From Aminobacterium mobile DSM 12262 (lineage in GTDB: Bacteria; Synergistota; Synergistia; Synergistales; Aminobacteriaceae), in NCBI RefSeq assembly GCF_000526395.1, contig NZ_JAFZ01000001.1, forward strand, positions 186,001 to 250,000: a stretch of DNA of 64,000 bases, given 5' to 3'. Positions 27,125 to 38,199 of this stretch are shown piece by piece. How positions within the stretch are numbered: the stretch's first letter is position 1; each line of letters begins with the position of its first letter. The notes beneath the pieces were generated by a model. The model was not told the origin of the DNA. It was given only the letters and a program-made list of their open reading frames with translations, and searched no databases. The position numbers and the translations under genes were made by a program.

Positions 27125-29143
27125 ATGAAAGAGAGAGAGTGGGGAGGGGGGTTTACCGATGCGAACCCCCGGCAGATCGCTCTTCCGCTGGGAAATAATC
27201 CAGATGTGGAGAAAAGGGGAGATCGAGTTTATAAACTCCCCGAAAAAGGCTTTTGTTCCCAAGAAGCACTTTTATATAAGTCGGTCTGCTTCGATAGTTT
27301 TTTTAACCATCCCGATATGTTATTGTGCCTTTTTGATGAGGAAGGCAGGGTTATTTTATGGAATAAGACTTTGGAACGAGTATCGGGGTACACATTTGAA
27401 GCTGTTCAGGGATCCCGTCGCTGGCTTTCCTTGTTGTATCCTAATATAGAGACGCGACAGAGGCTTCTTTCGTCTCTCCATGTTTTTGCAGACATGAAGG
27501 GCGCATCTGTCTCTTGTGAGACAAAAATGCGGGGAAGGGATGGTGAGACGGCTACTGTTTTATGGAGCTGTACTACCGTTTCTTTTGCTTCAGGGCTATC
27601 AGGTATCCTTTGTTCAGGTGTAGATGTGACAGCTCGTTCAAATCGGGAAAGAAAACTTGCTGAGCGTCTTTCAACGCTGACGGAGCTTTTTAATACGATG
27701 GGAGATGCTGCTTTCTTTCATGAAATAGTAAATAAAAGTACACCAGGTCTTTTTTTGGAAGTGAATGAGGGAGCTTGTCGAATGCTAGGTTATAGTCGCG
27801 AGGAGTTGCTCTCCCTTTCCCCCTTGGCCATTGAGGGCGAGTTGAGACGAGAGGGAATAAACCATGTTATCTCTTCTCTATTCCAGAAAGGGCAGGTAGT
27901 ATTCCAGACACAACTGAGAAAAAAAGATGGGACCTTTATCCCTGTGGAGATATGTGCCCATCTTTTTTGCCTTCGAGGTAAACCTGCCATTCTTTCCATT
28001 GCTCGCGATAGCACAGAGAGGAAGCAGGCTGAGGAAGCTCTTCGCGATAGTGAAGCCTTTTCTAGACGGATTTTAGCTCAAAACCCCAACCCTATTTTTG
28101 TCGTTGGTCCCGACACGAGAATTCAATATGTTAATGAGGCCTTTGAACATGTATTTGGTTACTCTTCAGAAGATGTTTTAGAGCGCCCAGCCCCTTATCC
28201 ATGGTGGCGGAGCGACTATTGGCTAAACATGGGGGAGCTTCGGCTGGCAATACATGAAGGGATGACAAGAAAAGAAAAGCTCTCTATTCGTAAAGATGGG
28301 GAAGAAATATGGGGCGAGGTGACAGCTGTCCCTATTCGCGAAAGGGACGGGTGTTTAAAATATTGTGTTCTTAGCTGGAATGACATTACTGCCCGAAAAA
28401 AATTAGAAGAGCAGATACGGCTTAACCAACATCAGTTGCAGTTTTTAACATCGGAACTATATGTTGCAGAAGAACGAGAGCGCCGACGTATAGCGACAGA
28501 CCTTCATGATGGAGTAGGACAAAATTTGGCCCTTATCAGAATAAAGTTAGAAATGCTGAGTAGCTATAACTCCTATTCTTCAAGTTCAAAAGAGATTTTT
28601 CAGGAAATCCTTGCTCTTTTAGATCGTTCCATCGTGGAAATGAGGACTCTTATTTTTGATTTGAGTCCCCCTATGCTCTACGAGTTGAGTTTCCATTCTG
28701 CGGTAGAGTGGCTTATAGAGAAAATGGGAGATGAGCACGGGTTATGTATTGTCTTTAAAGATTTGTTAATGTCGGATGATATAGCTATGGACATTAAAAT
28801 CTTCCTTTTCCGAGCTTTGCGGGAACTTTTAATGAATGTAGTGAAACATGCTCGAACATCTGAGGTGTCTGTATGCCTTTCTCGTTTTGACCGTTGGACT
28901 GTCGCTTTAGAAGTACGGGATAATGGCGTCGGCTTTGATCTCTCTTCTCTTCGAGAGTTAGGGAGAGATCCGAGTAACTTCGGGCTCTTGAATATCCAGG
29001 AACGAGTAAACTACATTGGAGGTTTTATGCAAATTGAATCGTCACCAGGGCAAGGAACGAATGTCACCCTTTTTGTTCCAGTAGAAAACGAAGAAGAAAG
29101 GGCCGGTGACTTTATTGAAAAAAGTGAAGATTCTGTTGGCTGA
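27125..29143 (+). CDS. PAS-domain sensor histidine kinase, NarL-type (HisKA_3)
   Basis: 672 residues. No signal peptide or membrane segment is evident, so probably cytoplasmic. Three PAS domains can be traced at about 55-175, 190-300 and 310-430 (each ending in a DxTARS / DSTERKQAEEAL / DITARKKLEEQ type boundary). HisKA_3 dimerisation helix follows with His461 in RIATDLHDGVGQ, then an HATPase domain with ELLMNVVKHA, VRDNGVGFD and NFGLLNIQERV. The gene overlaps the response regulator by 38 bases. The signal is unknown. The next genes downstream are the surface-assembly locus, a plausible target. Confidence 0.92.
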   Translation: MKEREWGGGFTDANPRQIALPLGNNPDVEKRGDRVYKLPEKGFCSQEALLYKSVCFDSFFNHPDMLLCLFDEEGRVILWNKTLERVSGYTFEAVQGSRRWLSLLYPNIETRQRLLSSLHVFADMKGASVSCETKMRGRDGETATVLWSCTTVSFASGLSGILCSGVDVTARSNRERKLAERLSTLTELFNTMGDAAFFHEIVNKSTPGLFLEVNEGACRMLGYSREELLSLSPLAIEGELRREGINHVISSLFQKGQVVFQTQLRKKDGTFIPVEICAHLFCLRGKPAILSIARDSTERKQAEEALRDSEAFSRRILAQNPNPIFVVGPDTRIQYVNEAFEHVFGYSSEDVLERPAPYPWWRSDYWLNMGELRLAIHEGMTRKEKLSIRKDGEEIWGEVTAVPIRERDGCLKYCVLSWNDITARKKLEEQIRLNQHQLQFLTSELYVAEERERRRIATDLHDGVGQNLALIRIKLEMLSSYNSYSSSSKEIFQEILALLDRSIVEMRTLIFDLSPPMLYELSFHSAVEWLIEKMGDEHGLCIVFKDLLMSDDIAMDIKIFLFRALRELLMNVVKHARTSEVSVCLSRFDRWTVALEVRDNGVGFDLSSLRELGRDPSNFGLLNIQERVNYIGGFMQIESSPGQGTNVTLFVPVENEEERAGDFIEKSEDSVG

Positions 29144-29774
29144 TGACCATCAAATTCTTCGAGATGGTTTGCGAACTCTTTTAAACACCCAAAATGATAT
29201 GGAAGTTGTAGGCGAGGCGGAAACAGGACGGCAAGCTATAGAAATGTCTGTTGCTCATTGTCCGGATGTGCTCGTTATGGATGTTATTATGCCAGAATTG
29301 AATGGAATTGAAGCTACATGCCGCCTCAAAAAAGAGCAGCCGGGAGTAAAAGTCTTAGCTCTTTCTATGCATGCCGATAGAAAGTTTGTGACGGAAATGC
29401 TGAGGGCAGGAGCTTCCGGATTTCTGCTAAAAGAATGTGCTTTTCGAGAACTGGCAGAGGCAATTCGGGCCATAGTCGCAGGGAAAGTATATTTGAGTCC
29501 GAGCATTTCAAAAGTTGTTGTGGAAGAGTACCTTGATTTTTTAAACGAGGATAAAGAATGCGTATCGTCTGGTCATGTTTTAAGTCTTCGAGAAAGAGAG
29601 GTTTTGCAACAAATCGCAGAAGGCAAAGGGAATCGAGATATAGCGAAGAGTCTTCACGTAAGTGTAAAGACAGTAGAAACTCATAAATACAACATTATGC
29701 GTAAACTAGGCCTTCGATCTGTGGCAGAGCTGACAAAATATGCCATAAAGAGCGGCATTACCTCTATAGACTGA
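29106..29774 (+). CDS. NarL/FixJ-type (LuxR HTH) response regulator
   Basis: 222 residues. Receiver domain 5-125 with acidic pair LADDH, phospho-acceptor Asp59 in VMDVIMPE and Lys in FLLKECA; C-terminal LuxR-type HTH at about 155-215 (LSLREREVLQQIAEGKGNRDIA, VSVKTVETHKYNIMRKLGL). Start is GTG at 29106 inside the kinase gene, with AAAGGG very close by; a TTG nine bases further on is possible. Partner of the upstream PAS kinase. A short hairpin (TTAAAG/CTTTAA, 29777-29791) follows the stop. Confidence 0.92.
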   Translation: MTLLKKVKILLADDHQILRDGLRTLLNTQNDMEVVGEAETGRQAIEMSVAHCPDVLVMDVIMPELNGIEATCRLKKEQPGVKVLALSMHADRKFVTEMLRAGASGFLLKECAFRELAEAIRAIVAGKVYLSPSISKVVVEEYLDFLNEDKECVSSGHVLSLREREVLQQIAEGKGNRDIAKSLHVSVKTVETHKYNIMRKLGLRSVAELTKYAIKSGITSID

Positions 29775-30080: not shown

Positions 30081-30629
30081 ATGAAAAGATTGTTTCTTCT
30101 GTTTGCAGTAGCAGCCATGGTCGTTTTTGCGGCTGGTGCTGTGTTTGCCGAGGAAGCCCCCATGACCATGGAGGAGGCTGGTTTTTCACGTTGTAACCCC
30201 TCGGGATGTTCACCGTGGGATACGCTGAAAATCAATTGGAGAGTTATTCCCATTAACTGCCTGCAGATTCGGCAGGACGAGATCTGCATGGCCACCTACA
30301 TCGGCTGCTGCGATGGATGGTGTGATGAGGAGTGCATTTGGTACGCCGTCGTTGCTACAGGTACTGATGAGAGAAAGATTGTTGGCAAGATCGACGTCAA
30401 TATGCCCGAGCACGTAACACTGTGGGCAAAACTGAGAGCTCCTTATGGAACCAGTGCTGTTGGAACACCTAACTGGACCGAGCTTTCCACAGATTATGTG
30501 GATCTCGTGACCGGGATTTCCAAGATTTGCGGAGCTTGGGGCAAGGGCGGATTGAAACTTTGCGCCGGCGCTGATGCTCAGAAAGGCTCCGGAGTTAGAG
30601 TCCTAACCCTTCTCATTCAGGACGTATAA
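30081..30629 (+). CDS. Secreted Cys-rich surface subunit (putative major pilin-like protein)
   Basis: 182 residues, ribosome site AAAAGGGAGGAAGAAAAG. Signal peptide ends AVFA (cleavage near residue 23). The mature protein has a Cys-rich front (Cys 38, 43, 60, 69, 76, 77, 81, 85; cluster GCCDGWCDEEC) and a C-terminal beta-type domain (about 88-182) with two more Cys. That domain matches the protein at 34908-35387: YAVVATGTDERKIVG against YIVTATGTTPRKIVG, then MPEHVTLWAKL against LPEGVQLFLKL. It is first in the locus and is followed by a terminator-like hairpin, as expected for a highly made structural subunit. Not assignable to a named family by eye. Confidence 0.8.
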   Translation: MKRLFLLFAVAAMVVFAAGAVFAEEAPMTMEEAGFSRCNPSGCSPWDTLKINWRVIPINCLQIRQDEICMATYIGCCDGWCDEECIWYAVVATGTDERKIVGKIDVNMPEHVTLWAKLRAPYGTSAVGTPNWTELSTDYVDLVTGISKICGAWGKGGLKLCAGADAQKGSGVRVLTLLIQDV

Positions 30630-30671
30630 GAAGGAGAGAGGATATCTGCATAAGAGGTATCCGAGGGACGA

Positions 30672-30703
30672 GGGCGGCGTTCCATGAGGGCGCTGCCCTT
30701 TTT
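30672..30703 (+). terminator. Intercistronic terminator/attenuator after the first subunit gene
   Basis: GGGCGGCG (30672-30679) pairs with CGCTGCCC (30691-30698, one G-T pair) and is followed by TTTTT. Just upstream is a second hairpin (GGATA...TATCC, 30640-30662). This should raise expression of the first subunit over the downstream assembly genes. Confidence 0.75.
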
Positions 30704-30723
30704 AGTCAAGGAGGAGACGAAAA

Positions 30724-31209
30724 ATGAGTGGGACTACAGTAACATCGAGAATTGTTCTTCTCGTCTTTCTCGTAATTTTTTCTCCTTTGAGTGAGCGCTC
30801 GGAAGCGATGGAGCTCATCGCTTTAAGTGGCTGGTCGTCCCTCGTTATAGGGGCATCAGCTTCTAGTGGGCGAGGTTCGCGCGAGAGTGATCCTTCTATA
30901 GCCTCATTGGGTATTGTTAATGCTAAGGGGCAAGATGATATGTGGAATGTGGAGGTCAAGCTCATAGAAGGAGCTACATTGCCTGAGGGAATTCAAATAT
31001 GGATTCGTCGGACAGGGAACGGTATGGGGGCTGGATGGATACGTGGCGGTACATCCTATCAACTTGTTGATCCTGCGGGGACGTTGTTTTTTACAGGAGC
31101 GGGAGATCGTAGTCATATAACAGTGCAGTTTAAGGTTTCCGGAATATCACCAGAAACACCGAAAGGGATTTATGCTCCACACATTGCTTTTACGGTGGTG
31201 GATTTATGA
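30724..31209 (+). CDS. Secreted subunit 2 of the surface-assembly locus
   Basis: 161 residues with a strong ribosome site (AAGGAGGAGACGAAAA). A signal peptide (about residues 8-28, ending SERSEA) precedes a small beta-rich domain. The segment LPEGIQIWIRR followed by GAGWIRGGTSYQLVDPAGT and a final beta pair (HITVQFKVSGI, APHIAFTVV) parallels the LPEGVQLFLKL...LSGIWGIYG...IRIRLSV course of subunit 3, so it is probably a diverged member of the same subunit family. No Cys remains in the mature part. Its stop overlaps the next start (ATGA), coupling it to the chaperone-like protein. Confidence 0.72.
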   Translation: MSGTTVTSRIVLLVFLVIFSPLSERSEAMELIALSGWSSLVIGASASSGRGSRESDPSIASLGIVNAKGQDDMWNVEVKLIEGATLPEGIQIWIRRTGNGMGAGWIRGGTSYQLVDPAGTLFFTGAGDRSHITVQFKVSGISPETPKGIYAPHIAFTVVDL

Positions 31210-32039
31210 TGAGAAAAATAATAATGAAAACCCTTTGTGTCTGTGTTATGGCCCTGTTAGCATTACCAAGTGGTGGAGGGCAGTGCTTTGCCAATATAGA
31301 TATAGTGGGAGATCTTACCTATCGTTTCAATGTATCCCCCGGCCAGGAAGTGCGGGGACAAATAGCCATAAGAAATTATAGCAAAGAAGAATCTGTGCAG
31401 GTTTCTATTAATCAGAATGATTACCATTGTTATGCTGATGGACGGAACGAATATCCGTCCCCAGGGAGTCATAATCGATCCAATGCTCTTTGGATGGCTC
31501 TCAGTCCACGACAGCTTATTATTCCTCCAGATAGCATCGGTACTTTTGAATATGTTATTTGTACTCCCAAGGAAGAAAGTCTTCGTGGAACCTATTGGAG
31601 CCTCATTATAGTAGAGCCTATAGGACAGGAACGTTTACAGGTTCCGGATGGGTCAAAGGAAGATATGGCTTACAACGTTACTACCGTTTTTAAATATGCC
31701 ATTCAAATGATCACTGATGTAGGTACATCTGGAGTACAGGAAATTCAGTTTATAGATAAGAGATTAAGAACGGTAGAAGGCATGCCTGTTCTTGATCTTG
31801 ATATTGAAAATACAGGGGAACGCGTTATTCGCCCTGTTGTATGGGCAGAACTATACGATCAACAGGGGAATCAGGCGGGAAAATTTGAAGGTGGACGGCG
31901 ATGGATTTATCCTGGTTCCTCATGTCGGTTTGAAATTCCTCTCAAAGGGATTAAGCCTGGGGATTATAAGGTTTTGCTTGTAGCGGATGGTGGAGAAGAC
32001 GAAGCTTTTGGTGCTCAGTATGCCCTGGTCGTAAAATAG
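31206..32039 (+). CDS. PapD-like periplasmic chaperone candidate (two Ig-like domains)
   Basis: 277 residues. Signal peptide ends near QCFA (residue 29; in-frame ATGs at codons 1, 2 and 7). Domain 1 (about 30-175) has the course of a pilus chaperone: a strand with PGQEVRGQIAIRNYSKEE, then LSPRQLIIPPDSIGTFEYVI and LRGTYWSLIIVEP, resembling the P-x(n)-pg-x-Y/F...P...Y.l.i...P pattern of PapD-like proteins. Domain 2 (about 180-277) is a second Ig fold (LDLDIENTGERVIRPVVWAELYD, PGDYKVLLVADGG). It could hold exported subunits for the barrel protein downstream. The call rests on pattern and context; structural modelling would settle it. Confidence 0.65.
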   Translation: MMRKIIMKTLCVCVMALLALPSGGGQCFANIDIVGDLTYRFNVSPGQEVRGQIAIRNYSKEESVQVSINQNDYHCYADGRNEYPSPGSHNRSNALWMALSPRQLIIPPDSIGTFEYVICTPKEESLRGTYWSLIIVEPIGQERLQVPDGSKEDMAYNVTTVFKYAIQMITDVGTSGVQEIQFIDKRLRTVEGMPVLDLDIENTGERVIRPVVWAELYDQQGNQAGKFEGGRRWIYPGSSCRFEIPLKGIKPGDYKVLLVADGGEDEAFGAQYALVVK

Positions 32040-32050
32040 GGGGGGTGGGC

Positions 32051-34900
32051 ATGATGAGAGGCAGAGAGCAAAGACTGGCAATAGGCATAGTTTGTTTGCT
32101 GCTTTGCCTATTCTCCAGTTTCGCATGGGCTCAAGGAAAGGGATATGGCGTAGAGGTTAGGGCCCGTTCCCCTTTGCAAATTAGTACAAAGCCAGGGCGC
32201 ATTATTAGCGTGAGTGTTCTTATCACAAGTTTTCAGACTAGAGAAGAGACGTTTATTGAAGAAATTAAACTTCCTGAGGGCTGGCAACCTTTAGTGCCGC
32301 CAGGGCGCTTTTCCATTCCGGCACGTGGCAGCATATCTCGTGTTGTGGCCTTCCAGGTCCCAGCTTCTACAAAAGCGAATGACTACGATGTTATTTATTC
32401 TGTAAAAAATCGCCGAGATTACGGCGTCTATGATGAAGAAATTTTTACAGTCTCTGTTTTAACTGTAGAAGGTCTTGACCTTATTCTCGTTAGAAAGCCT
32501 GTTGCCATTATTGCAGGGCAGAGTTACGAGGTGGACCTTCAAGTTTTAAATAAGGCAAATACATCTCGGGAGATCCATATAGATTTACCCGATCGCGACC
32601 CTCGCTTCCCCGCAACTGTTACTCCCACAGATGTGGCTCTCGAAGCAGGAGAGAGTGCAAATTTAAAATTAAAGGGGAAAATTTTTGCCGAAAGTACATC
32701 TCGTTTCCATTTTGTGGAAGTGCGGGCTACTACAACTGGTGATAAAGGGCCAGAATCAGCAGTTCTAACAGTAGATCTTGATGTTATCCCAAAGGGTGGC
32801 GGAGAGTTGGATATTTTCCATGTCTTGCCAACAGAACTTGCTTTCAGCGTTATGGGCAATTCGGGGGGAGATGGAGCCAATATCGAATGGAGCGGGTACG
32901 GGTATCTCGATGAAGAACGTACCAAGGGTGTAGATTTCCTTTTCAGGGGCCCTGATACAGATGACAAAGGACTTTATGGTGACGTAGAAGAGTATTGGCT
33001 CACCTATTTTACCGATACATTTTCTCTTTTTCTCGGAGATCAGGGGTATCCCCTCTCTCGCCTGACCTCGTCCTCTTCCTATGGTAGAGGCATAGGTTTT
33101 TCATATGAACCGGAAAGGCTTGGCTTAGGCGGTGGAGGTCACTACATGAAGAGCCGCTGGGGGTACCCTGATAAGAAAGAGTTCGGGTTCTACATAAGTC
33201 AGAAGATGCAAGAGAATCTTGAGATACGTTTGAATATGCTTCAGAAAAGGCGAGATGCTTATAAAAATAAACCTTCTACAGAAGACAAGCTGTGGAGCGT
33301 GAGCGCCGAGTATCGACCATGGGAGCATACGCTTCTCGAATTGGAGTATGGATTCTGCGATACCGATAGGGAGAGAGCGCTTGATGATGATGAAGCATAT
33401 CGTATTTATTTGAGAGGCCGCATGGGTAAAAATATGCCCTACTCCATTACAAGAGTGAGGGCGGGTACCGACTATTGGGGGTACTATCACGATTACGACT
33501 ATACAAGTGCCTCTCTTGGGTTTCCTTTAAGCGATCGCTTGCAATGGAATGTGTCGTGGTACGAATATAAAAACAATCTAAATATGCGTAGCGAAAATAA
33601 TACAACACAGATTATTGAAGAGCTGTTCCAAACCTATATGGACTATGAACTTTCAGATGGTTGGTATATTTCATTGGGATATGATGATTTTTCTATGAAA
33701 GACAACCTTCTTCCCGCAGAATATGATTTTTATGAAAAATCTTGGTGGGTGCGAGTGGGGAGAAATATGGAGAAGTACAGCTATTCGGTAGAGGCTCGTT
33801 ACGCCGATCAGGATGATCTCCTGAGAGGAGAGAGCACCCACGCATGGAATTACAATGTTTCATTAAGTTATCAGTTAACTCCAGATTTATATGTCTCTCT
33901 GTATGGAGGCTTTGGTGATAATAGGGTGCTTGAAGATAGTTATCTTTTAAGAGCATCGACAAACAGAGGGATAAGTATTATATGGGATGCAACTCCCAGT
34001 TTAAGGCTTTCGTGCTGGTATACTCGCTATTCTTATGATGATAATGATTTTGTAGACAACAGTGAGCAATACGAATTCATGGCGGAGCAGACTTTCGCTG
34101 ATGAAAGCATTCTACGTTTCCGAATTCAACGTAACGACAACAGTGGAGAAATGGAGACTTCATACTCCATTATGTACGTTATTCCTCTCGATATAAAAAT
34201 GGCTAAGAAGAAAAATGTGGGTGTTCTGCAGGGCCTCATTTATGAAAACGTAGGAGATGAAAAAAGAGGAGTTCCTAATGTTGTTCTGGCCATCGAAGAG
34301 CAGACCGCGGTTACTGATGTCAAAGGAGTGTTTCTTTTCCCGTCGTTAACGCCAGGCCCCTACCTTTTGAAGATAGATCGAGCTTCTCTCGGTGGTAGCC
34401 GAGTTCCAGATGTGAAGACCCCGATTATAGTGGAGATAGCGGGGTATGGAGAGATTACTTCTATGGATATAGGAATAACTGATGGAGCAACGCTCAATGG
34501 TGCTGTAGTCCTTGTAGATCCTGAAGCTGGGAAAGATGGAACGGCTACGCTAGAAGGAGAAAAAGGATACCTCGTAGGGGATACTCTCGGCAACGATGGG
34601 GCATTACAGGCAGGGGGGCTTCAAAGTGTCTTGGTAGAAATGAAGAATGGCGAAGAGGTTCATCGAAGACTTACAGATGAGTGGGGAAAATTCTTGTTCG
34701 AAGGGTTACGCCCAGGGAAGTGGACTTTAAAGATTTACGATATAAATATTCCTTCATCTTATCATCTAGAACAAACAGAGCAGGTTTTCGAGTTTAAGCC
34801 GGGGGAAGTGGGAAGCTTTGAAGCCAAGGTTCTCCCAAGAAAGAGAACCATTCGTTTTCTTGAAGAAGGCAAGATTGTAATGGGCCGGGAAGGAAAGTGA
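32051..34900 (+). CDS. Outer-membrane beta-barrel protein with flanking Ig-like domains (usher-like)
   Basis: 949 residues from the ATG at 32051 (ribosome site AGGGGGGGTGGGC; the GTG at 32045 lies inside it). Signal peptide to about residue 27 (SSFAWA). Two N-terminal NEW3/Ig-like domains at about 30-130 and 135-243. A long stretch (about 250-715) of alternating aromatic/polar strands (FSLFLGDQGYPLS, WNVSWYEYKNN, YNVSLSYQLTPDLYVSLYGG, EMETSYSIMYVIPL) fits an outer-membrane barrel. Two C-terminal carboxypeptidase-regulatory-like Ig domains follow, with TDVKGVFLFPSLTPGPYLLKI and TDEWGKFLFEGLRPGKWTLKI. The periplasmic-barrel-Ig order recalls fimbrial ushers, but no FimD sequence motif is obvious. 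Confidence 0.7.
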   Translation: MMRGREQRLAIGIVCLLLCLFSSFAWAQGKGYGVEVRARSPLQISTKPGRIISVSVLITSFQTREETFIEEIKLPEGWQPLVPPGRFSIPARGSISRVVAFQVPASTKANDYDVIYSVKNRRDYGVYDEEIFTVSVLTVEGLDLILVRKPVAIIAGQSYEVDLQVLNKANTSREIHIDLPDRDPRFPATVTPTDVALEAGESANLKLKGKIFAESTSRFHFVEVRATTTGDKGPESAVLTVDLDVIPKGGGELDIFHVLPTELAFSVMGNSGGDGANIEWSGYGYLDEERTKGVDFLFRGPDTDDKGLYGDVEEYWLTYFTDTFSLFLGDQGYPLSRLTSSSSYGRGIGFSYEPERLGLGGGGHYMKSRWGYPDKKEFGFYISQKMQENLEIRLNMLQKRRDAYKNKPSTEDKLWSVSAEYRPWEHTLLELEYGFCDTDRERALDDDEAYRIYLRGRMGKNMPYSITRVRAGTDYWGYYHDYDYTSASLGFPLSDRLQWNVSWYEYKNNLNMRSENNTTQIIEELFQTYMDYELSDGWYISLGYDDFSMKDNLLPAEYDFYEKSWWVRVGRNMEKYSYSVEARYADQDDLLRGESTHAWNYNVSLSYQLTPDLYVSLYGGFGDNRVLEDSYLLRASTNRGISIIWDATPSLRLSCWYTRYSYDDNDFVDNSEQYEFMAEQTFADESILRFRIQRNDNSGEMETSYSIMYVIPLDIKMAKKKNVGVLQGLIYENVGDEKRGVPNVVLAIEEQTAVTDVKGVFLFPSLTPGPYLLKIDRASLGGSRVPDVKTPIIVEIAGYGEITSMDIGITDGATLNGAVVLVDPEAGKDGTATLEGEKGYLVGDTLGNDGALQAGGLQSVLVEMKNGEEVHRRLTDEWGKFLFEGLRPGKWTLKIYDINIPSSYHLEQTEQVFEFKPGEVGSFEAKVLPRKRTIRFLEEGKIVMGREGK

Positions 34901-34907
34901 GGTGAAG

Positions 34908-35387
34908 ATGATGGTCTGGAGAATGTTTACTTTGGGGTTTATTGCTGCCTTCCTTCTCGCTTGTGGCCCTGTGGAAGGAGTAGATCGAACTGTGGCTACA
35001 ATACAAATTTCTATAGAAGTTCCAGAGGAAAATGCCATCTCTATTCTTCAGAATCCTCTCTCGCTTAACAGCTATATTGGTAATGAAGGCGAGACGTCTC
35101 CGCTAACTTATATTGTTACAGCTACAGGAACTACCCCACGGAAAATTGTTGGTCAGATAGAAGGGATTCTCCCTGAAGGGGTACAGCTTTTTCTGAAACT
35201 TGATGCCCCTGTTCGAGGACAATCTGCAGGCTTTGTGGAACTTGGAGCACAGGAAGTAGAGCTTCTTTCGGGAATTTGGGGGATATATGGGGTACAAGGG
35301 AATGGAGTTGTCCTTCTTAAGGCAGGAAATGAAGCGGCCCGGAATTTGGGACAGATTCGAATTCGTCTCTCGGTCCGGGAAACGTAA
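34908..35387 (+). CDS. Subunit 3 of the surface-assembly locus, candidate lipoprotein
   Basis: 159 residues from the ATG at 34908 (GAGGTGAAG just before it; the GTG at 34902 overlaps that site). The hydrophobic leader ends FLLACGPVEG, an acceptable lipobox with Cys19, although cleavage after the VEG by signal peptidase I is also possible. The mature part is homologous to the C-terminal domain of the first subunit over about 90 residues (ATGT-x2-RKIVG, PEGVQLFLKLDAP, GNGVVLLKAG). It lacks the Cys-rich front half. A membrane-anchored base or terminal subunit would fit. It starts 7 bases after the barrel gene. Confidence 0.72.
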   Translation: MMVWRMFTLGFIAAFLLACGPVEGVDRTVATIQISIEVPEENAISILQNPLSLNSYIGNEGETSPLTYIVTATGTTPRKIVGQIEGILPEGVQLFLKLDAPVRGQSAGFVELGAQEVELLSGIWGIYGVQGNGVVLLKAGNEAARNLGQIRIRLSVRET

Positions 35388-35403
35388 AGGAGGGCTTATA
35401 AAC

Positions 35404-35607
35404 ATGGGGGATCTATATTCTCTGCGAAAGGAGCGAGATTATCTTTCTCGAGAATCCACAAGGAAGAACATGGATCAAAGAGAATGGGAAATTCGCTACC
35501 TGAAAGTCCTTGAAGATATTTATCGTGAAGAACAGAAGCTCCGAGGTCGAGGACACTGCTTGGATAAAAAAAGAATCCATAGTGAAGACCGACCCTATCC
35601 AGAATAA
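35404..35607 (+). CDS. Small charged hypothetical protein
   Basis: 67 residues, start ATG at 35404 after AAAGGAGGGCTTATAAAC, 17 bases past the previous stop. Rich in Arg, Glu, Lys and Asp (MGDLYSLRKERDYLSRES, KVLEDIYREEQKLRGRG), without signal peptide or membrane segment, probably helical and cytoplasmic. Last gene of the surface-assembly operon and followed by a strong hairpin. Not recognised. Confidence 0.6.
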   Translation: MGDLYSLRKERDYLSRESTRKNMDQREWEIRYLKVLEDIYREEQKLRGRGHCLDKKRIHSEDRPYPE

Positions 35608-35618
35608 AAGAACGACTA

Positions 35619-35658
35619 GAGGCTTCCTTTACAGCATATGCATATAAAAGGAAGCCTC
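35619..35658 (+). terminator. Hairpin closing the surface-assembly operon
   Basis: Perfect 12-base arms GAGGCTTCCTTT and AAAGGAAGCCTC around a 16-base loop that holds GCATATGC. No T run follows on the plus strand, so efficiency is uncertain. Confidence 0.65.
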
Positions 35659-35721
35659 GCCTCACCTCATTTCTGTTGTAAAATAAACAGTATATTCGTA
35701 GGTCGTAATGAGGTGATGCTT

Positions 35722-36591
35722 ATGATGCTTCGATGGAAAATCGCAAGCATGTTTTTTGCGTGTTTTTTAGGTCTTATATTCGTTGGGCCTCTTCGTGGGG
35801 ATGAGAAAATCCATGTAGCTGTTTCCATTCCACCACAAGCCTATTTTGTTCAGCAAATAGCTGGCGAGCATGCTGTTGTTCAGGTACTTATCCGTCCTGG
35901 AAACGATCCGCATACCTACGAGCCGCGCCCTTCTCAAATGAAGCTTTTATCTGACGGTGCTATTTATTTTGCGGTAGGTCTTCCCTTTGAAGAAGCGTTG
36001 CTTCCGCGGCTTCAGTCATTGAGCTCCTCTCTGCGAATAGTAAAAACACAAAAGGACATAGAGCGACTTGTTGGAAGTGACCATCATAGCGGTCATGATC
36101 ATGAGCTTGTGGATCCGCATATTTGGTTATCTCCATCCCTCGTAAAGATTCAGGCAGCAGCGATACGAGATGGTTTTGTTGCCTTGGACCCTGCCCATAC
36201 ATCAGAGTATAATCGCAACTATAGCATTTTCTGTTCCCAAATAGACCAGTTAGATCAATTAATTCGAGGAGAATTTCAGGGAAAAACAAAGAATAAATTT
36301 GTTGTTGTTCATCCTTCCTGGGCTTATTTTGCTCGAGAATACGACCTGGAACAGATTGCTATGGAAATAGAAGGCAAAGAGCCGAAAGCGGCAGATCTCG
36401 CCGCTCTTATTCAGAAAATGAAAGAAGAAGGACTCTCTACTATTTTTGTTTCTCCTCAGTTCTCTAAAAAGATAGCGGAAAGTCTTGCTCGTGAGGTTGG
36501 GGCTTCTATTGTTGTTATAGACCCTCTACCTATCAATTGGGCGGAAGGAATGCTACACACAGCTCAAGTTATAGGGGAAAGTTTACGATGA
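35722..36591 (+). CDS. znuA: Zinc/manganese ABC transporter substrate-binding protein (ZnuA/TroA family)
   Basis: 289 residues from the ATG at 35722, six bases after GAGGTGATGCTT; in-frame ATGs at 35716 and 35725 are less likely. Signal peptide ends near FVGPLRG. Metal ligands are visible in DPHTYEPRPSQM (His), the His-rich loop SDHHSGHDHE, VDPHIWLSP (His), VVHPSWAYFAREYDL (His) and a C-terminal VVIDPL (Asp). The His/Asp-rich loop favours zinc. First gene of znuA-znuC-znuB, each overlapping the next. Confidence 0.93.
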   Translation: MMLRWKIASMFFACFLGLIFVGPLRGDEKIHVAVSIPPQAYFVQQIAGEHAVVQVLIRPGNDPHTYEPRPSQMKLLSDGAIYFAVGLPFEEALLPRLQSLSSSLRIVKTQKDIERLVGSDHHSGHDHELVDPHIWLSPSLVKIQAAAIRDGFVALDPAHTSEYNRNYSIFCSQIDQLDQLIRGEFQGKTKNKFVVVHPSWAYFAREYDLEQIAMEIEGKEPKAADLAALIQKMKEEGLSTIFVSPQFSKKIAESLAREVGASIVVIDPLPINWAEGMLHTAQVIGESLR

Positions 36592-37388
36592 GTGACAATA
36601 ATTATGTGATTTCTTTTAAGAACGTTTCTTTTCATTACGAAAATGGTGACAAGGTTTTGGATAACGTGTCTTTTCTTGTGCCACGAGGTGAGTTCCTAGT
36701 TATTATTGGCCCTAATGGCGGAGGAAAAACAACCTTGCTTAAGTTAATTCTCGGCCTTGTAAAGCCTACGTATGGAGAAATACAGGTTTTAGGGAGAACG
36801 CCTGGCCACTCCACGGGATGCGTTGGGTATGTCCCTCAAGATACCGGCCGTAGCCGAGATTTTCCTATAAGTGTTCTTGATGTAGTGTTAATGGGGCGTC
36901 TCGGGGGAGGCAGAAAGGGATTTCTTTTCTCTCAGGAAGATCATGAAATTGCTATGGAAGCTCTCGCTCGCTTAGGTATGGCAGATCAGAGTTGTGCCAA
37001 AATGGGAGAATTATCTCAAGGGCAACGCCAAAGAGTTTTTATTGCACGAGCTCTCGCTTCTCGACCCCAGATTCTTTTAATGGATGAACCAATGGCGAGC
37101 ATTGACCCAGAAGCGAGAGGTGTTCTCTATGAAGAATTGGCTTCTCTGGCTGGGAGTCTCACTATTTTAGTGGTAAGTCATGACCTATCTGTTATAGCCA
37201 GTGGTGCTACGGCAGTGGCTTGTGTTTGTAGCGATGTGTATTACCACAATGCTGGTGAGATTACAGAAGAAATGTTGGCTATGGAATATGGAGGACAGTG
37301 TCCGGTAGAGCTCGTTGCTCATGGCGTTCCTCATCGTGTGCTCGCTCGCCACGACCATGCTTCAAAGGAGCTCTCTTCTCATGATTGA
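36588..37388 (+). CDS. znuC: Zinc ABC transporter ATP-binding protein
   Basis: 266 residues from the ATG at 36588, which overlaps the znuA stop as ATGA; GGGGAAAG lies upstream. Walker A GPNGGGKTT, signature LSQGQRQRVFIARAL, Walker B ILLMDEPMASIDP, switch VVSHDLSVI. The C-terminal extension with CVCSDVYYHN, and a late HRVLARHDHASKE, is His-containing as in many ZnuC proteins. Energises zinc uptake with ZnuB. Confidence 0.93.
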   Translation: MSDNNYVISFKNVSFHYENGDKVLDNVSFLVPRGEFLVIIGPNGGGKTTLLKLILGLVKPTYGEIQVLGRTPGHSTGCVGYVPQDTGRSRDFPISVLDVVLMGRLGGGRKGFLFSQEDHEIAMEALARLGMADQSCAKMGELSQGQRQRVFIARALASRPQILLMDEPMASIDPEARGVLYEELASLAGSLTILVVSHDLSVIASGATAVACVCSDVYYHNAGEITEEMLAMEYGGQCPVELVAHGVPHRVLARHDHASKELSSHD

Positions 37389-38199
37389 TATGTTACAGTT
37401 TGAATTTATGAAAAACGCTTTTGGGGCGGCTCTTCTTGCCAGCGTACTTTGCGGTATGATGGGAACTCTTGTTGTTGTTCGTCGCCAGGTTATTATTGCT
37501 GGAGGGGTTGCTCACGCTGCGTACGGCGGTGTGGGCCTTGCTTTTTTTCTAGGCATATCACCTCGCTTGGGAGCTATTGGCTTTTCTCTTGTCATGGCCC
37601 TTATAATGGCATGGGTTACCCTCCATAAGCCCTCTCGATCCGACTCGATTATCGGTGTCCTTTGGGCTGTCGGTATGGCTGCAGGGGTTATCTTTATAGA
37701 TATAACACCTGGATACGGCTCTGATCTTATGAGCTATTTGTTTGGAAGCATTTTGACGGTATCACGAGGTGATTTATGGTCTATGGGTAGTCTGGTTGCC
37801 ATTTCTCTTCTCTTAGGTATTCCTTTTCACCGAGAAATTCTCGCCTTCGCCTATGAGCCGGAGTTCGCAAAGACTCGAGGAGTGCCTGTGGTTCTTTTGC
37901 ACTTCGTTACAATTATCCTTATTTCCGTAGCTGTTGTTCTCTTAATTCGGGTGGTTGGGCTTATCCTCGTTATAGCTCTTTTGACGATTCCCCCCTCTAT
38001 AGCGGAACAGTGGGCTCATTCCCTCTTTTCTATGATGGGCATTGCTTTTGTCTTGAGCCTGCTCTTTTCTACGATAGGGTTATGGCTCTCTTTCCGTTTC
38101 AATGTAACAGCAGGCGCTGTGATTATATGCGTAGCAGCTGTCGGGTATGTCTTGGCATTTCTTATTTCCCCCATAGCCCGCGGAAGCCTCCGGAAATGA
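37381..38199 (+). CDS. znuB: Zinc ABC transporter permease
   Basis: 272 residues from the ATG at 37381, overlapping the znuC stop by eight bases, with AAAGGAG upstream. Family motifs: MKNAFGAALLASVLCGMMGT at the N-terminus, GGVAHAAYGGVGLAF, and VVGLILVIALLTIPPSIAEQ. About eight membrane spans. Its last 38 bases overlap the end of the convergent mprF-like gene. Confidence 0.92.
   Translation: MIDMLQFEFMKNAFGAALLASVLCGMMGTLVVVRRQVIIAGGVAHAAYGGVGLAFFLGISPRLGAIGFSLVMALIMAWVTLHKPSRSDSIIGVLWAVGMAAGVIFIDITPGYGSDLMSYLFGSILTVSRGDLWSMGSLVAISLLLGIPFHREILAFAYEPEFAKTRGVPVVLLHFVTIILISVAVVLLIRVVGLILVIALLTIPPSIAEQWAHSLFSMMGIAFVLSLLFSTIGLWLSFRFNVTAGAVIICVAAVGYVLAFLISPIARGSLRK

Follow-up and report, generated by a model that had tools for sequence, protein, structure and literature searches.

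Analysis of the open reading frames between positions 30081 and 35607 of the window, which is the whole stretch of 64,000 nucleotides of Aminobacterium mobile DSM 12262 DNA that was analysed, revealed six genes, Q1 to Q6, all located on the plus strand as the earlier note had read them (Table 1). The tight or overlapping spacing that had been ascribed to the entire series applies from Q2 onward, where Q2 and Q3 overlap by 4 bp and the pairs Q3/Q4, Q4/Q5 and Q5/Q6 are separated by 5-11 bp, 1 bp and 16 bp, respectively, while Q1 is set apart from Q2 by a gap of 94 bp that carries a terminator-like hairpin. The start codon of Q4 is either GTG 32045 or ATG 32051.

Table 1. Features of the locus and of the regulatory genes upstream of it (window coordinates).
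Feature	Position	Strand	Evidence
PAS/HisKA_3 histidine kinase and LuxR-type response regulator	27125..29774	+	Domain matches; congener synteny
Q1, secreted subunit, 182 aa, first gene	30081..30629	+	ORF; 29-member subunit family; homology to Q5 and Q2
Terminator-like stem-loop between Q1 and Q2	30670..30700	+	13 bp stem and U run; folding energy
Q2, secreted subunit, 161 aa	30724..31209	+	ORF; locus comparison; hhalign
Q3, periplasmic two-Ig chaperone, 277 aa	31206..32039	+	AlphaFold; Foldseek; homology chain to archaic chaperones
Q4, usher-like outer-membrane protein, 949 residues	32045..34900	+	AlphaFold; Foldseek; Pfam; C-terminal domain profile
Q5, subunit, 161 aa, LLAC lipobox	34902..35387	+	ORF; homology to Q1
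Q6, small charged protein, 67 aa, without signal peptide	35404..35607	+	Congener alignment

The sixth, small charged gene proved to be real, and its start lies not at 35287 (35287-35607), as had been assumed, but at ATG 35404 following AGGAGG, as indicated by cross-species alignment. Two congeners share the 67-aa frame at 79-81% identity; of their 31-34 substitutions 24-25 affect the third position of a codon, and conservation is strong in the first 48 residues. The view that Q6 is a spurious ORF, raised because no ORF of at least 80 aa matched, was dropped since the shorter frame is conserved in the congeners. No relatives of Q6 were found outside the genus; being confined to the genus, Q6 is not a core part of the system, and its tie to the assembly system is putative.

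Comparison of the locus with other genomes showed that, wherever the contig extends far enough, one or more subunit genes are followed by Q2, Q3 and Q4 and often by one further subunit. This order is kept across genera and phyla at about 30-45% protein identity, and the arrangement is therefore not due to chance. Among the 151 Synergistota genomes sampled, relatives of Q3 were present in 11 and relatives of Q4 in 12, and the canonical usher (PF00577) was found in none. When 84,980 species genomes were scanned, further loci were found in an Armatimonadetes-titled MAG, in two Deltaproteobacteria-titled MAGs and in MAGs titled 'bacterium' from the same phylum as the Armatimonadetes-titled one; these loci outside Synergistota all come from MAGs, whose contig assignment carries some risk. 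The conservation of gene order elsewhere, suggested in the earlier note as a check, was thus observed in Synergistota and in the MAGs of both other titles. Across loci Q4 strictly co-occurs with the chaperone and the subunits, and the number of paralogous subunits varies, as in pilus loci, reaching three Q1-type genes in L016 and in L033. The viral contigs searched encoded no relative, and no description of this system was found in the literature searched. In one congener the locus is present a second time as a divergent copy (L020, G047:C1:682001-702000), which is about 37-38% identical and has no trailing subunit. In a distant cousin locus (L064, G223:C108) the barrel protein has 1039 residues and a PKD domain at its C-terminus, and it is accompanied by a chaperone and an additional secreted protein of 278 residues.

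AlphaFold models of Q3 and Q4 were obtained with ten homologues each. The Q3 model (pLDDT 84.8) contains two tandem Ig domains, the region between the F1 and G1 strands being poorly defined, in agreement with the two-Ig, PapD-like reading of this protein, for which structure prediction had been set beforehand as the refuting test. Foldseek against the PDB placed WxLIP 9i25 at the top (E 1.6e-15), next CfaA 6k73 (8e-10) and then, among others, FimC, Caf1M, YadV and CsuC; CfaA is the best chaperone of the chaperone-usher (CU) pathway by fold, with TM-scores of 0.46/0.57. WxLIP was also matched by sequence (hmmsearch 2e-4; hhalign 9.6e-6 over 218 columns, signal peptides removed), while the direct hhalign comparison of Q3 with archaic PapD-like chaperones, signal peptides removed, was not significant (E 0.005) and that with classical PapD gave 0.007 over 44 columns; in the same test the control, archaic against classical chaperones, gave 1e-7. 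Pfam and NCBIfam returned no PapD_N or PapD_C match to Q3. Untrimmed hhalign values (1e-5 for Q3 and archaic PapD, 3e-6 for Q1/Q5 and SCPU) were dropped because they were inflated by the signal peptides, trimming of which changed them to 0.005 and 0.24, respectively. Q3 ends after its second domain and is without the C-terminal transmembrane helix of WxLIP.

One proline is invariant in all CU chaperones, Pro59 in CsuC and Pro60 in EcpB, and Arg89, which anchors the subunit carboxylate, marks the archaic and alternate types (PMC4654587). Alignment with EcpB, whose residue positions were verified on its sequence, revealed that P101, invariant in all Q3 rows, corresponds to P60, so that Q3 carries the superfamily proline. 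The Arg89 column on strand F1 is occupied in Q3 by an invariant Trp, W131, within the motif GTYWS, and the Arg marker is thus absent from Q3.

In the Q4 model (pLDDT 79.3) two Ig domains at the N-terminus are followed by about 26 barrel strands in succession (residues 261-719) and then by two prealbumin domains at the C-terminus. The signal peptide, the two N-terminal Ig domains and the barrel that had been proposed for this protein were all recovered, but the C-terminal pair, taken for Ig-like, is prealbumin/carboxypeptidase-regulatory-like according to Pfam. The FimD usher 3rfz was the best match among 350,542 PDB chains (E 7e-13), with LptD behind it at 6e-9 and BtuB also among the fold matches; the TM-scores against FimD are low (0.28-0.37), so this comparison ranks the fold and does not prove homology. 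At the sequence level no match to PF00577 was obtained for any protein of the window and Pfam returned a weak Porin_4 match in Q4. Profile comparison of the barrel segment with known ushers gave an E value of 0.03 (control 2.4e-5). No inserted plug domain is present in the model, and plug profiles reached at best 0.02, within one of the C-terminal domains (control 3.4e-11); the profile of the usher N-domain found nothing at its place in Q4 (control 9.4e-6). The C-terminal domain profile of archaic ushers, on the contrary, matched Q4 with 1.1e-5 (reversed decoys 0.27-0.54), a match that counts less alone since the prealbumin fold is common.

The three subunits are mutually related: Q1 is homologous to Q5, and Q2, in which a short N-terminus precedes the shared part, has its C-terminal half in common with both (hhalign E 1.4e-6). 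Alignment of the related subunits, a family of 29, showed an alternating hydrophobic N-terminal stretch and a C-terminal strand at the chain end. Q1/Q5 matched no known pilin family in hhalign with signal peptides removed; SCPU (PF05229) was not matched by any of the subunits in Pfam and gave 0.24 with Q1/Q5 in hhalign, and WxL domains were matched neither in Pfam nor in hhalign. Q1 is Cys-rich, as first described, with 10 Cys after residue 25. Cys-rich first subunits occur in several Synergistota, with up to 12 Cys (window 30081-30629; L021:8933-9451). A DsbA-family (PF01323) protein was not found in the genome to which the window belongs, and the cysteines of the first subunits might bind metal or make use of another oxidase. 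The lipobox noticed in the last subunit is present in Q5, but it is limited to the genus (LLAC, LLSC and LLSC), and the trailing Q5-type subunit is optional in other loci. Q1 is probably the major subunit, whereas Q2 may be a tip or minor subunit and Q5 may form the base or anchor. Co-variation between the basic residue of the chaperone G1 strand and the acidic residue at the subunit end was inspected by eye and gave no clear pattern.

Folding of the Q1/Q2 gap (97 nt folded) gave -34.6 kcal/mol (z -4.1). Strong hairpins were identified at the same position in L013, L014, L021 and L024 (z -5.0, -3.2, -5.1 and -4.0, respectively), so that hairpins after the first subunit are common to several genera despite differing sequence; a comparable hairpin was absent from this position in L015, L018, L019, L022 and L031. 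The stem-loop is probably a partial terminator that sets the subunit ratio, in which case more Q1 than later products would be made, as expected of a major subunit. The two-component system lies directly upstream and has syntenic counterparts in two congeners (59-77% identity); its possible role is to regulate the locus. Downstream of the locus, at 35638-38199 of the window, a ZnuA-type binding protein, an ABC ATPase and an ABC-3 permease form a zinc/manganese uptake operon that is syntenic in congeners. Neither the two-component system nor the zinc transporter was accepted as a conserved part of the system because their synteny is limited to the genus.

Pfam, NCBIfam and PDB sequence searches matched Q1-Q5 to no CU family (PapD, usher or SCPU), in keeping with the failure of the earlier note to recognise a named family by eye. 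A link was provided by nine more distantly related Armatimonadota loci (L126-L134, hereafter bridge loci), from phylum-mates of the Armatimonadetes-titled MAG, most of which show the same gene order, L131 ending after the chaperone. All nine bridge chaperones hit the Q3 profile, with E values down to 5e-27, and for six of them the profile of archaic PapD gave a match as well (down to 9.5e-10). In hhalign the bridge chaperone profile matched Q3 with 6e-29 (230 columns) and archaic chaperones with 1.4e-12 (197 columns) in full-length and collinear alignments, reversed decoys giving 0.1 or worse, and its match to WxLIP (0.0019) was weaker than that to archaic PapD. Arg at the Arg89 column is kept only in L126-L128. 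The bridge usher-like proteins matched Q4 (4.5e-19) and archaic ushers (1.3e-6), the latter mainly through the C-terminal domains, for which the archaic profile gave 8.9e-8, and one group of bridge subunits matched SCPU with 7e-6 over the N-terminal 46 columns. In the maximum-likelihood chaperone tree, which is only a guide at such divergence, a single clade (support 99/97) comprised the classical, alternate and archaic chaperones; neither the bridge chaperones nor Q3 fell within it, and WxLIP was connected to Q3 by a long branch. Judged from these sequence comparisons, Q3 appears to be homologous to the PapD/CsuC chaperones through the bridge family, and by its chaperone and usher C-terminal domains the locus appears to belong to the CU superfamily. 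The earlier note had left the choice between an analogous and a very remote homologous system; remote homology is the better supported of the two because, through the bridge loci, the chaperone as well as the C-terminal domains of the usher can be connected with archaic CU proteins.

CU pili have been sorted into three types, of which the archaic is the wide-range type (PMC4654587, PMC9452303). The present locus shares with archaic (sigma, Csu-type) loci the pilin(s)-chaperone-usher-pilin order, a two-Ig chaperone, a predicted barrel with C-terminal sandwich domains and, through the bridge loci, the homology of chaperone and C-terminal domains; it differs from them in having no SCPU-type subunits and no plug, in W131 at the Arg89 column, in two Ig domains instead of the usher N-domain and in not being recognised by Pfam. 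Alternate (alpha; CFA/I, ECP) systems likewise possess a two-domain chaperone, and CfaA, the best CU fold match, is one of theirs, but Arg89 is missing here and no CooC_C/TcfC match rose above the threshold, while the lack of a PapD_N/PapD_C match separates the locus from classical systems. Since the locus misses the defining features of all three types and homology of the barrel is unproven by sequence, it was placed outside them. We consider it likely that the locus is a CU-type pilus or surface-fibre assembly operon belonging to a branch outside the classical, alternate and archaic types; gene order, domain architecture, predicted folds and the remote homology of the chaperone and of the C-terminal usher domains were established, and from these we infer fibre formation, donor-strand exchange and the individual roles of the subunits. 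The models showed both a barrel and a two-Ig protein, and as far as predicted structures go they support the fibre or coat assembly system that had been proposed.

WxLIP (DUF916-DUF3324) is the best direct relative of Q3 in both fold and sequence, which would fit a WxL-like surface complex in which Q3 is a diderm WxLIP-type adaptor holding small secreted Ig-like proteins, Q4 serves only as anchor or exporter and no fibre is polymerised. WxLIP is a Gram-positive protein that is not known to build fibres. Comparable cluster make-up is found in WxL clusters, where a single WxLIP is accompanied by at least two small secreted proteins (PMC10599100). Such a complex is nevertheless unlikely, given that Q3 is without the WxLIP transmembrane helix, that the subunits match no WxL domain, that the monoderm WxL clusters contain no barrel and that the bridge chaperones are nearer to archaic PapD than to WxLIP.

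Convergence, by which an Ig chaperone and an outer-membrane barrel were recruited independently of the CU pathways, would account for a barrel whose homology to ushers is not supported by sequence, for the missing plug and usher N-domain and for C-terminal domains that belong to the widespread prealbumin fold. It is an improbable explanation in view of the chaperone homology chain with its full-length collinear alignments and null decoys, the gene order identical to that of archaic loci and the C-terminal domain match specific to archaic ushers. That Q4 acts as a general porin, or as an exporter of the LptD kind, surrounded by unrelated envelope proteins is very improbable: its strand number near 26 is that of LptD, LptD and BtuB are among its fold matches and a weak Porin_4 match exists, but the E value for FimD is better than that for LptD by orders of magnitude, the periplasmic domains are different and Q4 strictly co-occurs with the chaperone and subunits.

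In the CU-type assembly operon that we favour, Q1, Q2 and Q5 would reach the periplasm as subunits with an incomplete Ig-like fold. Q3 would cap each of them, probably through donor-strand complementation, in which its long F1-G1 region or G1 strand is lent to the groove of the subunit. The periplasmic part of Q4, made up of the two N-terminal Ig and the two C-terminal prealbumin domains, would receive these complexes. The subunits would then be handed over to one another's N-terminal extensions and pass through the barrel of Q4, forming a surface fibre with Q1 as major subunit, Q2 as candidate tip and Q5 as candidate base or anchor.

If Synergistota, Armatimonadota and Deltaproteobacteria share a fourth and deeper branch that present profiles overlook, the CU pathway would be more widespread than has been recognised, and anaerobes without recognised pili of this kind would gain a candidate attachment organelle. 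Such a branch would suggest that neither the plug nor the customary N-domain is needed for an usher to work, Trp instead of Arg89 would offer a different grip on the subunit ends, and the CU pathway would be tied to the Gram-positive WxL system. It is conceivable, although doubtful, that the family is the missing link between diderm CU pili and the Gram-positive WxL/WxLIP system, with one ancestral donor-strand chaperone module having served both and the plug-less usher system being an early form that predates the split into classical, alternate and archaic types.

The plasmid record CP069367.1, labelled Klebsiella pneumoniae, codes at 101785-102456 for a protein that shares 73% identity with WxLIP of Enterococcus; this record is likely mislabelled or contaminated.
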